DNA of 64,000 nucleotides, from contig CALAOR010000090.1 in assembly GCA_937889595.1 (NCBI GenBank), positions 62,001 through 126,000 on the forward strand, written 5' to 3'. A program made the position numbers and the translations under genes. Below the pieces are notes generated by a model, which saw nothing but the letters and a program-made list of their open reading frames with translations, was not told where the DNA came from and ran no database searches. Of the stretch, positions 46,757 to 58,654 are shown piece by piece (within the stretch, counting starts at the first letter, position 1; every line of letters starts with the position of its first letter). The stretch is from an uncultured bacterium. GTDB lineage: Bacteria; Oederibacteriota; PGYV01; Palsa-1178.

Positions 46757-46789
46757 GTAGAGAGGGGGCTTGCCCCCTCTCACAGCGGG
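46757..46789 (+). repeat. GTAG-headed hairpin (REP-like), RAYT-associated family
   Basis: GTAGAGAGGGGGCTTGCCCCCTCTCACAGCGGG, same architecture as 57949-57982. Confidence 0.7.
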
Positions 46790-55699: not shown

Positions 55700-56486
55700 G
55701 ATAACAGGACAAGGGCTTTTTCTGATCGCGGGCCCCTGTGTCATAGAGAATGAAAAGATGGCTTTTGCCGTGGCTGCAAAGCTTAAGGAAATAACGGGGC
55801 GGCTCGGCATTCCTTTTGTTTTTAAAGCGTCATATGACAAAGCCAATCGGAGTTCGATCGGGAGTTTCCGCGGCCCGGGGATTAAAAAAGGCCTGGCTCT
55901 GATGTCAAATATAAGAAAAACCCTTAATGTCCCGGTATTAACGGATGTGCATGAAACCAAGGATGTAATAGAAACGGCGAAAGTCGTTGATATCCTGCAG
56001 ATACCGGCATTTTTATGCAGACAGACGGACCTGGTGGTTGCAGCCGCAAAAACCGGAAAAATAGTGAACATCAAAAAAGGCCAGTTTCTATCCCCGTTTG
56101 AAATGGATAATATAATAAAAAAAGCGGTTTCAACCGGAAATAAGGAAATTATGCTGACTGAACGGGGTTTCTCGTTTGGATATAATAATCTGGTTGTCGA
56201 CCTGAAATCCATAGCCTACATGAAGAACACAGGTTATCCGGTTGTTATCGATGCCACGCATGCCGTGCAAAGACCCGGAGGAGCCGGCGACCGCAGCGGC
56301 GGGGACAGGGAATACATAGAGACAATAGCAAGGGGCGCGGTGGCAGCGGGCGCGTCAGGTGTTTTCATGGAAGTCCATCCCAACCCGGCAAAGGCAATGT
56401 CAGACAGGGATTCACAGTACGCGTTGGATAAGGTGGAACCGGTATTGAGGAAGTTAAAAGAGATTTATGATCTGGTGAACGGATAA
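55647..56486 (+). CDS. kdsA: 3-deoxy-8-phosphooctulonate synthase (start at GTG 55647 or ATG 55674)
   Basis: FLIAGPCVIENEKMA, FKASYDKANRSSIGSFRGPGI, VIDATHAVQRPGG. Confidence 0.94.
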   Translation: MKNSRTRGKMRPLKRYSEITGQGLFLIAGPCVIENEKMAFAVAAKLKEITGRLGIPFVFKASYDKANRSSIGSFRGPGIKKGLALMSNIRKTLNVPVLTDVHETKDVIETAKVVDILQIPAFLCRQTDLVVAAAKTGKIVNIKKGQFLSPFEMDNIIKKAVSTGNKEIMLTERGFSFGYNNLVVDLKSIAYMKNTGYPVVIDATHAVQRPGGAGDRSGGDREYIETIARGAVAAGASGVFMEVHPNPAKAMSDRDSQYALDKVEPVLRKLKEIYDLVNG

Positions 56487-56506
56487 AATAAAATACCAAG
56501 GTTTTC

Positions 56507-56540
56507 GTAGAGAGGCTGCTTGCTGCCTCTCTGACGCGGG
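56507..56540 (+). repeat. REP-like palindrome, type A
   Basis: GTAGAGAGGCTGCTTGCTGCCTCTCTGACGCGGG; identical to 57949-57982. Confidence 0.85.
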
Positions 56541-56559
56541 GTTTTAAACCGAGGGGTGT

Positions 56560-57150
56560 TTGAAATTGAAAAAAATAATAGCAGTGCTTTTATTGTTGGT
56601 TATATGTTCGTGCAATAGTAATAAACCAGAAAATACAATTCTACGAACGTCCGGACTAAAATTAACCAAATTTTTGGAATATTTAAATAAAGCGTATACA
56701 AACACCCCTGTTGGATATGCCGAAGAGAATGCATTTAAAGATACTATTCAAATAAAAAGAACCGTCAATTCTTTTAAAGGTAAAGAATATCAATTGAAAA
56801 GCGGAAAAAAATATTACAAGCATTTATCACTGGTTTATGTTGTATATGATTCAGCCGATAAGTGTGATGCCGAAATTAGGGGGTTTTGTAAAAACAGGAT
56901 GGATTATTGGGACATAGACAGTTTGTTAAAAGGAAAGGAGATAGAACAAGGAAAATCGGTGCCGTTAATAATCGTGGTAAATAAACAGGAAATTGTATAT
57001 ATGGATACGTATTGCGAAAACACTCCGAAAGATTGGACTGATATAAAGAAACAATTTGTTGAATGTTTTTTAGATAAAAATACCGGGCAATCTTATTTTA
57101 TAGAAGCGGAATGCGCCGGTTCCGTTAAGCTGATTAAATCTAGAAATTGA
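56560..57150 (+). CDS. AT-rich lipoprotein of unknown function
   Basis: TTG start; lipobox LLLVICSCNS; visibly lower GC than neighbours. Confidence 0.6.
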   Translation: MKLKKIIAVLLLLVICSCNSNKPENTILRTSGLKLTKFLEYLNKAYTNTPVGYAEENAFKDTIQIKRTVNSFKGKEYQLKSGKKYYKHLSLVYVVYDSADKCDAEIRGFCKNRMDYWDIDSLLKGKEIEQGKSVPLIIVVNKQEIVYMDTYCENTPKDWTDIKKQFVECFLDKNTGQSYFIEAECAGSVKLIKSRN

Positions 57151-57160
57151 GATTAAACGA

Positions 57161-57193
57161 TATAGAGACACTATTTGCTGTTTCTCTGACGCT
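57161..57193 (+). repeat. Degenerate type A REP-like palindrome
   Basis: TATAGAGACACTATTTGCTGTTTCTCTGACGCTG resembles type A. Confidence 0.5.
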
Positions 57194-57283
57194 GATTTTA
57201 GACCGTAGTTGGACTGAAGAACTTAACCATGAACGACAACAAACAGTTATTGTGAAAGACGGGAACCGTTTTATAAAGCCACT

Positions 57284-57366
57284 GTAGAGCGGCAGCAAGC
57301 AGCCGTTGAAACATGCAAAGGCCGTTTATTAAGGCCGTGGTGAGCGGCAGCAAGCAGCCGCTCTAC
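57284..57366 (-). repeat. REP-like element, type B
   Basis: GTAGAGCGGCAGCAAGCAGCCGTTGAAACATGCAAAGGCCGTTTATTAAGGCCGTGGTGAGCGGCAGCAAGCAGCCGCTCTAC. Confidence 0.85.
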
Positions 57367-57406
57367 GGTGAGTGTAATAATTTAACACAAAAACTGAGGG
57401 GTTTTT

Positions 57407-57952
57407 ATGTCTTTATTTCAAAACAAATACCGTATCGAAACGGCACATCTAAAAGACTATGATTATTCGTCCGAAGGGGATTATTATGTCACAATATGTA
57501 CAAATAATAAACAGAACATATTTGGCTTTGTCGAAGACAAAAGAATGGTTTTGAACCCGGCAGGCATAGCCACCGGAGAACATTGGCAACACCTGCCGGA
57601 AGACTTTAAAAACATTACGCTTGGAGATTTTGTAATTATGCCCGACCACATGCACGGGATTATCAGGATAAACAAAAAAACAGTTAAAACCCTGCATAAT
57701 ATGATCAGGGTGTTTAAATCAAAATCAGGAATACAGATTAACAGAATAAACGGGACACAAGGCTCAAAACCATGGCAGACTGGTTTTTATGATAGGGTTA
57801 TAAGAGGGGAAATCGAATACTTCTTCGTGACAGAATACATTCTGAATAATCCTTTGGTTTATGAATTTGGAAAAGAAGGAAAAGAATGGTATGAGCTGTT
57901 TGAAGAAAGAAATAATCAGCAAAACAAACAAAACAACAACGAAACCGCGTAG
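57407..57952 (+). CDS. REP-associated tyrosine transposase (RAYT, Y1/HUH superfamily)
   Basis: YYVTICTNNKQNIFG, FVIMPDHMHGIIRI (HxH), SKPWQTGFYDRVIRGEIEYFFVTEYILNNP; flanked by REP-like palindromes. Confidence 0.93.
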   Translation: MSLFQNKYRIETAHLKDYDYSSEGDYYVTICTNNKQNIFGFVEDKRMVLNPAGIATGEHWQHLPEDFKNITLGDFVIMPDHMHGIIRINKKTVKTLHNMIRVFKSKSGIQINRINGTQGSKPWQTGFYDRVIRGEIEYFFVTEYILNNPLVYEFGKEGKEWYELFEERNNQQNKQNNNETA

Positions 57953-57982
57953 AGAGGCTGCTTGCTGCCTCTCTGACGCGGG
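57949..57982 (+). repeat. REP-like palindrome, type A; overlaps the RAYT stop codon
   Basis: GTAGAGAGGCTGCTTGCTGCCTCTCTGACGCGGG; RAYT stop TAG is 57950-57952. Confidence 0.88.
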
Positions 57983-58023
57983 TTTGTAACGCAGGATGTG
58001 AAACTGTGGGATTAATGCAATGA

Positions 58024-58102
58024 AACGGCAGTAAGCAGCCGTTGAAACATGCAAAAGCCGTTTATTAAAGCCGTGGTGAGCGGCAGCAAGCAGCCGCTCT
58101 AC
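58024..58102 (-). repeat. REP-like element, type B copy
   Basis: Near-identical to 57284-57366 (a few substitutions). Confidence 0.85.
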
Positions 58103-58164
58103 AAAATCTTATATTTTATTGGGGTTTTGTGGCAAAACAACATTCAAAATCCTCCTTTTCCCTG

Positions 58165-58193
58165 TTGCCTTAAGCGGTTTTATCTGTTATATT
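58165..58193 (+). promoter_or_regulatory. Sigma70-like promoter
   Basis: TTGCCT-N17-TATATT upstream of 58232. Confidence 0.5.
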
Positions 58194-58231
58194 CTAATGG
58201 AACAAAAAACAACAAAAAACAAGGAGTTTTT

Positions 58232-58654
58232 ATGACTGAACATGAGAAATACACCGCTTTTATTGACGGTGCGTCCAGCGGCAATCCCGGGCATGCGGGC
58301 ATCGGCGTTGTCATTTATAAAGGAAAAGACCAGGTTCTGGTTGAATCCAAGTACATTGGCACGGCTACCAACAATGTGGCTGAATATACGGCTTTGACGC
58401 ACCTTCTGGATATGGCAAAGAAACACAAGATCAAGGAACTTCACGTTTTTTCCGACAGCGAGCTTATGGTAAAACAGCTGTCCGGTGAATACAAGGTGCG
58501 GGATGAAAAACTCCAGGAGTTTGTAAAGACGGCTTTAACCTTTAAAAAGGACATCAGGTTCGAAGTAACCCATATACCGCGCGAAAAGAATAAGGAAGCC
58601 GACAAGCTTTCCAAGGAAGGCTCAAAAAGGGGAGGCAATATAAGAAATGTATGA
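58232..58654 (+). CDS. Ribonuclease HI-like protein (RVT_3 type)
   Basis: AFIDGASSGNPGHAGIGVVIY, NNVAEYTALTHLLDMA, VFSDSELMVKQLSGEYKV; ATG after AAGGAG. Confidence 0.9.
   Translation: MTEHEKYTAFIDGASSGNPGHAGIGVVIYKGKDQVLVESKYIGTATNNVAEYTALTHLLDMAKKHKIKELHVFSDSELMVKQLSGEYKVRDEKLQEFVKTALTFKKDIRFEVTHIPREKNKEADKLSKEGSKRGGNIRNV

Follow-up and report, generated by a model that had tools for sequence, protein, structure and literature searches.

A REP-RAYT system with two-ended REPINs and a second RAYT locus in the candidate phylum FCPU426

The REPtrons described from Proteobacteria (PMC2817692; E. coli TnpA-REP, 4er8; group 3, PMC8266576) combine a Y1/HUH protein carrying a Y---NP motif with genome-abundant, GTAG-headed imperfect palindromes on the flanks of its gene, and both features recur at the locus described here. 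Joining of the RAYT 3' end to REP units has also been seen previously among these REPtrons (PMC2817692, PMC8266576). The present system differs from them in belonging to the candidate phylum FCPU426 and in possessing two near-identical, full-length RAYT copies at two loci; the Nunvar 2010 survey found no multiple RAYT copies or changes of location (PMC2817692). REPINs consist of two inverted REPs with outward heads and a short spacer that together form one long hairpin (PMC3116915), an arrangement shared by the units found here, and head-to-head GTAG REP heterodimers with different stems are known, for example, from P. aeruginosa (PMC3733652). With the insertion sequences of the IS200/IS605 family (IS608, ISDra2) the RAYT shares its predicted fold and the HUH/Y1 active-site layout, but it carries the Y---NP motif in place of the Y----Q type, is associated with inverted REP pairs rather than distinct left and right ends, and has a low gene copy number.

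The locus lies in a 64,000-nucleotide stretch of DNA (the window) belonging to the 3.42-Mb genome of an uncultured peatland bacterium, G000 (99% complete, 0.1% contaminated), which was compared with a sister species, G001, and with two related genera, G002 and G003, the latter another genus of the same family. Inspection of the sequence found the palindromes and the RAYT ORF where an earlier sequence-only reading had placed them, in the order A, degenerate A, B, RAYT, A and B'. The features are as follows.

56507-56540, plus strand: REP A, 21 bp 3' of the kdsA stop; G001 has an A end in the same position after kdsA
57161-57202, plus strand: degenerate REP A, head lost (ATAG), 69% identity to A over 42 nt; placed at 57161-57193 by the earlier reading
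57284-57366, minus strand: B block 5' of RAYT, two inverted hairpins with GTAG heads outward; the minus-strand REP B is 57342-57366
57407-57952, plus strand: RAYT gene, 181 aa; HUH is H81-M82-H83, catalytic tyrosine Y144 in Y-ILNNP
57949-57982, plus strand: REP A 3' of RAYT; its GTAG head (57949-57952) supplies the RAYT stop TAG (57950-57952)
57949-58102, no strand assigned: downstream REPIN, A(+)-spacer-B(-), 154 bp, heads outward, one of 32 pairs in the genome
58024-58043, no strand assigned: weaker internal hairpin, AACGGC-8 nt-GCCGTT, seen in the sequence of the downstream REPIN spacer / B' block
58078-58102, minus strand: REP B', outer end of the downstream REPIN; block B' spans 58024-58102

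On the plus strand, REP A consists of GTAG followed by a GAGAGGC...GCCTCTC-type hairpin, and REP B repeats this design on the minus strand with one stem change (GTAGAGCGGC...GCCGCTC); a minus-strand REP closes each B block (CTAC at 57363-57366 and 58099-58102). The two full A copies (56507-56540 and 57949-57982) are, as had been noted, identical over 34 nt, with 95% identity over 42, and B and B' are 96% identical across 77 nt. Because A(+) and B(-) are oppositely oriented with their GTAG heads outside, 57949-58102 is one REPIN. REP A at 56507-56540 corresponds, by sequence comparison, to the A end of the REPIN that lies upstream in G001. Both flanks of the RAYT gene thus bear GTAG-headed palindromes, and the same holds at the second RAYT copy of G000, in G001 and in G003.

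The interval from REP A to the degenerate A contains a gene for a predicted lipoprotein of 196 aa (56560-57150, plus strand). G000 has one copy of this gene and the three nearest genomes have none; in the latter, kdsA is directly followed by a REPIN or by rnhA. A PHROGs search returned nothing for the RAYT or the lipoprotein, an Rfam scan of 56300-58400 at the gathering threshold gave no match, and a search of a plasmid collection yielded no similar DNA.

Sequence and modelled fold confirmed the ORF at 57407-57952 as a RAYT-type Y1/HUH transposase with intact HMH and Y144-ILNNP motifs. The match to Pfam Y1_Tnp lies above its cut-off (26.4 versus 23 bits), and that to NCBIfam REP_Tyr_transpos (NF047646; E 1.7e-17, 63.7 bits) lies under a cut-off of 80, which is a naming threshold and not a functional feature. 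A profile of 42 homologues retrieved E. coli TnpA-REP (4er8) as top match (E 2e-11), and the AlphaFold2 model (pLDDT 89.4) gave Foldseek matches to 4er8, IS608 and ISDra2. H81, H83, N148 and P149 are present in all 42 aligned homologues and Y144 in 41 of them. The catalytic residues, whose loss the sequence-only reading had named as a possible refutation, are therefore kept (H81-M-H83 and Y144) within a protein bearing the RAYT-type Y---NP motif, and its proposal of an intact REP/RAYT system is supported by these residues, by the fold match to 4er8 and by the genome-wide REPs presented below.

A GTAG/GTGG-headed hairpin lying within the gene, in the stretch from HUH to Y, was detected in approximately 29 of 88 homologues, the hairpin test being permissive and the count approximate. 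Such internal REP-like hairpins recall TnpA-REP subclass 2.4, the mark of which is REP insertions at this place in the gene (Quentin 2018, PMC6006769). The window RAYT, a possible member of that subclass, has no REP-like hairpin inside its gene, and its HUH-Y distance is short, at 63 aa, the median of the subclass being 88.

A genome-wide count, suggested by the sequence-only reading as a check, found the palindromes to be abundant elsewhere: GTAGAGNGGCNGCNNGCNGCC, allowing up to 2 mismatches, occurs in G000 at 109 forward and 108 reverse places, compared with 2 and 0 for a reversed-pattern control. Since some palindromes enter these numbers on both strands, the clean figure is 86 exact REP heads; REP positions in G000 derive from pattern searches and fetched stretches. 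Sixty-four of the 86 heads form 32 head-outward pairs, mostly of 85-110 bp, and 25 of these pairs join an A end (GTAGAGAGGC) to a B end (GTAGAGCGGC), above random pairing (p = 9e-4). A representative A+B unit of 95 bp folds into a single long hairpin (-32.3 kcal/mol, z -7.1); REP abundance and hairpin folding are both far above chance. All traits of REPINs were observed, namely inverted REPs, outer heads, a short spacer, a joint hairpin and many dispersed copies (32 pairs). A and B had been proposed to be two palindrome classes; as read from the pairing, they mostly form the opposite, inverted ends of a single composite REPIN (A, spacer and B, together about 85-110 bp) rather than separate elements. 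The A+B units take the form of the known GTAG heterodimers (PMC3733652), but they constitute a sequence family of their own in which 25 of 32 pairs are mixed.

By genomic context, which rests on crude ORF calling, 54 REP units were distributed as follows: tandem gene pairs enclosed 34, convergent pairs 8 and divergent pairs 7; 3 lay inside ORFs and 2 were unplaced. The preponderance of tandem (34 of 54) and convergent (8) positions, together with the stability of the hairpins, would suit palindromes that serve only as transcription terminators or mRNA-stabilising hairpins and adjoin the RAYT incidentally. We consider this highly improbable: a terminator-only role is set aside because a terminator scan did not call the A and B hairpins, REP abundance tracks the presence of a close RAYT, some REPs lie in frame within coding sequence, and the head-outward A+B pairing is unexpected for terminators.

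Further REP sequences were observed in G000. A second, G-rich REP family, GTAGAGAGGGNGCTTGCNCCCTCTC, is represented in the window at 46757 (plus strand) and occupies about 55 places in G000 and likewise in G001 (forward/reverse, 31/24 and 25/30, respectively), with 2/4 in G003 and none in G002; in G003 this family forms the other end of the RAYT-flanking units. Another RAYT-like gene of G000 (L109; contig C32, about 1580-2260) terminates with a stop located in the GTAG head of another kind of REP (GTAGGGGCGGACC...) and contains a REP-like hairpin of that kind. A 358-aa ORF on contig C35 (L016:1144-2220) carries one B and one A REP in frame within its linker, where they encode VERPLAAAH and VERLLAASQ.

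The RAYT stop at 57950-57952 does fall, as had been pointed out, inside the GTAG head at 57949-57952, and it does so because the REP abuts the end of the gene. The same arrangement was found at the RAYT genes of the second copy, of G001 and of G003 (59% identity), and at several distant homologues with unrelated REPs. As a special feature of RAYTs it was largely rejected, given that six REP units in G000 share their TAG with an adjacent ORF and four of these six ORFs are not RAYTs. A stop in GTAG followed by a hairpin was seen in 7 of 63 diverse RAYTs, two of which belong to the present RAYT family itself, and in 10 of 469 long nearby ORFs obtained by crude ORF calling (p = 0.002), while a stop in GTAG alone was not enriched (10/63 RAYTs versus 49/469 ORFs, p = 0.20). 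Di Nocera 2013 (PMC3733652) had already reported that ORFs beside such repeats often take their stop codon from the GTAG terminus. The stop within the palindrome is thus real, but GTAG REPs show it generally, and it is no sign of special coupling.

Candidate division FCPU426 provides the nearest named records, the MAGs palsa_1178 (80% identity) and bog_1181 (60%), whose RAYT loci resemble those of G001 and G003. Among the genomes searched, a RAYT of more than 55% identity occurs only in G000, G001 (80%) and G003 (59%). The REP pattern, with up to 1 mismatch, was found at 48/45 places in G000, 42/41 in G001 and, as a variant, 5/5 in G003, compared with 0-2 places per strand in every other genome searched. 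REP counts thus follow RAYT presence, and high repeat numbers appear to be confined to genomes with a close RAYT, a relationship based on three genomes of one family. In one REPIN orthologous between G000 and G001 the REP ends are nearly unchanged while the spacer and intergenic flank have diverged. The G001 RAYT likewise sits between kdsA and rnhA and has a REPIN on either side; in G002 and G003 the kdsA-rnhA interval is short and RAYT-free, and in G003 it retains GTAACGCAGCCGCTATAC, possibly a scar. The RAYT of G003 is located elsewhere, between genes that are not adjacent in G000. As a separate observation, G028, G034 and G053 each gave 11-14 RAYT-like matches, some of them pieces of one gene, well above the usual low RAYT copy number.

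These features make it very probable that the locus is an intact REPtron, in which the RAYT lies between REP/REPIN units, acts on REPs and helps to copy them. We infer the recognition, cleavage and copying steps as follows. The RAYT would be a single-strand-specific HUH nuclease that recognizes REPs A and B by their GTAG head and hairpin wherever the DNA is exposed as a single strand, as on the lagging-strand template. It would cut beside the hairpin via Y144 and help to spread copies of A-spacer-B units to further sites, chiefly in intergenic DNA.

A second full RAYT copy was found in G000 at C76:179294, with 98% protein identity. At the DNA level this copy resembles the window over 57291-58111, a segment that starts in the upstream B block and runs 9 bp beyond the outer head of B', and immediately 5' of it are the last ~15 codons of another RAYT copy and a REPIN. 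The counterpart site in G001 (C60) has the same genes on both sides and carries neither a RAYT nor a REPIN of the A/B family; the intergenic flanks of the two genomes no longer align there. Because G000 and G001 have the kdsA-rnhA locus in common, and the G000 copies resemble one another more than either resembles that of G001, the C76 copy is most simply read as the newer one. The two G000 copies differ at 18 codons, 14 silent and 4 replacing, and by this comparison the RAYT is under purifying constraint between them. Codons 3-100 are identical and 17 differences lie within 101-177, a pattern that looks like partial gene conversion. The C76 copy carries G134V; valine is found at that position in none of the 42 aligned homologues, so the activity of the C76 protein is uncertain. 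The A hairpin 5' of the C76 copy contains a 22-nt loop insertion, GAAATATGAGCTTGTCGAATGT (L049, about 2600-2640), resembling the TGAGCTTGTCGAA repeat that is present several times in L132.

The comparison of loci offers modest evidence that the RAYT gene can relocate. It appears to have been copied once, together with its downstream REPIN, to the second locus, whether through the REP-directed reaction described above or through recombination between REPINs; sequence alone cannot separate transposition from recombination, and the latter is favoured. The second copy probably arose when dispersed REPINs underwent homologous recombination or gene conversion, the RAYT acting only on REPs and its gene not being transposed: the REPINs are dispersed, similar and present on both sides of the C76 copy, the distribution of codon differences resembles partial gene conversion, and a tandem RAYT tail-REPIN-RAYT-REPIN array is a product of unequal exchange. 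The G001 counterpart, devoid of an A/B-family REPIN, fits this less readily, since a REPIN must then have arrived at the site earlier.

That same RAYT- and REPIN-free site between conserved flanking genes would be accounted for if the REPtron moved whole, in the manner of IS200/IS605 elements with REPs as its ends, the RAYT and downstream REPIN being excised or copied, sometimes in tandem, and then inserted. Such movement would also explain why similarity to the C76 copy stops within 9 bp of the right outer B head, as well as the RAYT-free kdsA-rnhA intervals of G002 and G003 and the different location of the G003 RAYT. We nevertheless hold it to be rather unlikely, as the left end of the C76 array lies inside a RAYT tail and not at a REP, only two copies exist, surveys of other RAYTs saw no IS-like mobility (PMC2817692, PMC6006769), and the differing sites between genera could also reflect loss or horizontal transfer. 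The second copy is the less expected finding.

Taken as a whole, the locus is a genuine REP-RAYT system of a kind already known, found in a little-known phylum, and it extends the known REP-RAYT pairing to the candidate phylum FCPU426. For specialists, two points stand out, namely the additional RAYT copy and the counterpart sites that lack the gene. Having both a shared RAYT locus and a newer one, along with sister sites free of RAYT and orthologous REPINs, the genus is a good natural test case. There is some chance, though a minor one, that the RAYT and REPIN transpose as a unit via a REP-defined end and that the REPtron is not fully domesticated; if so, this lineage would represent an intermediate between IS200-like insertion sequences and REP-copying genes that are immobile.
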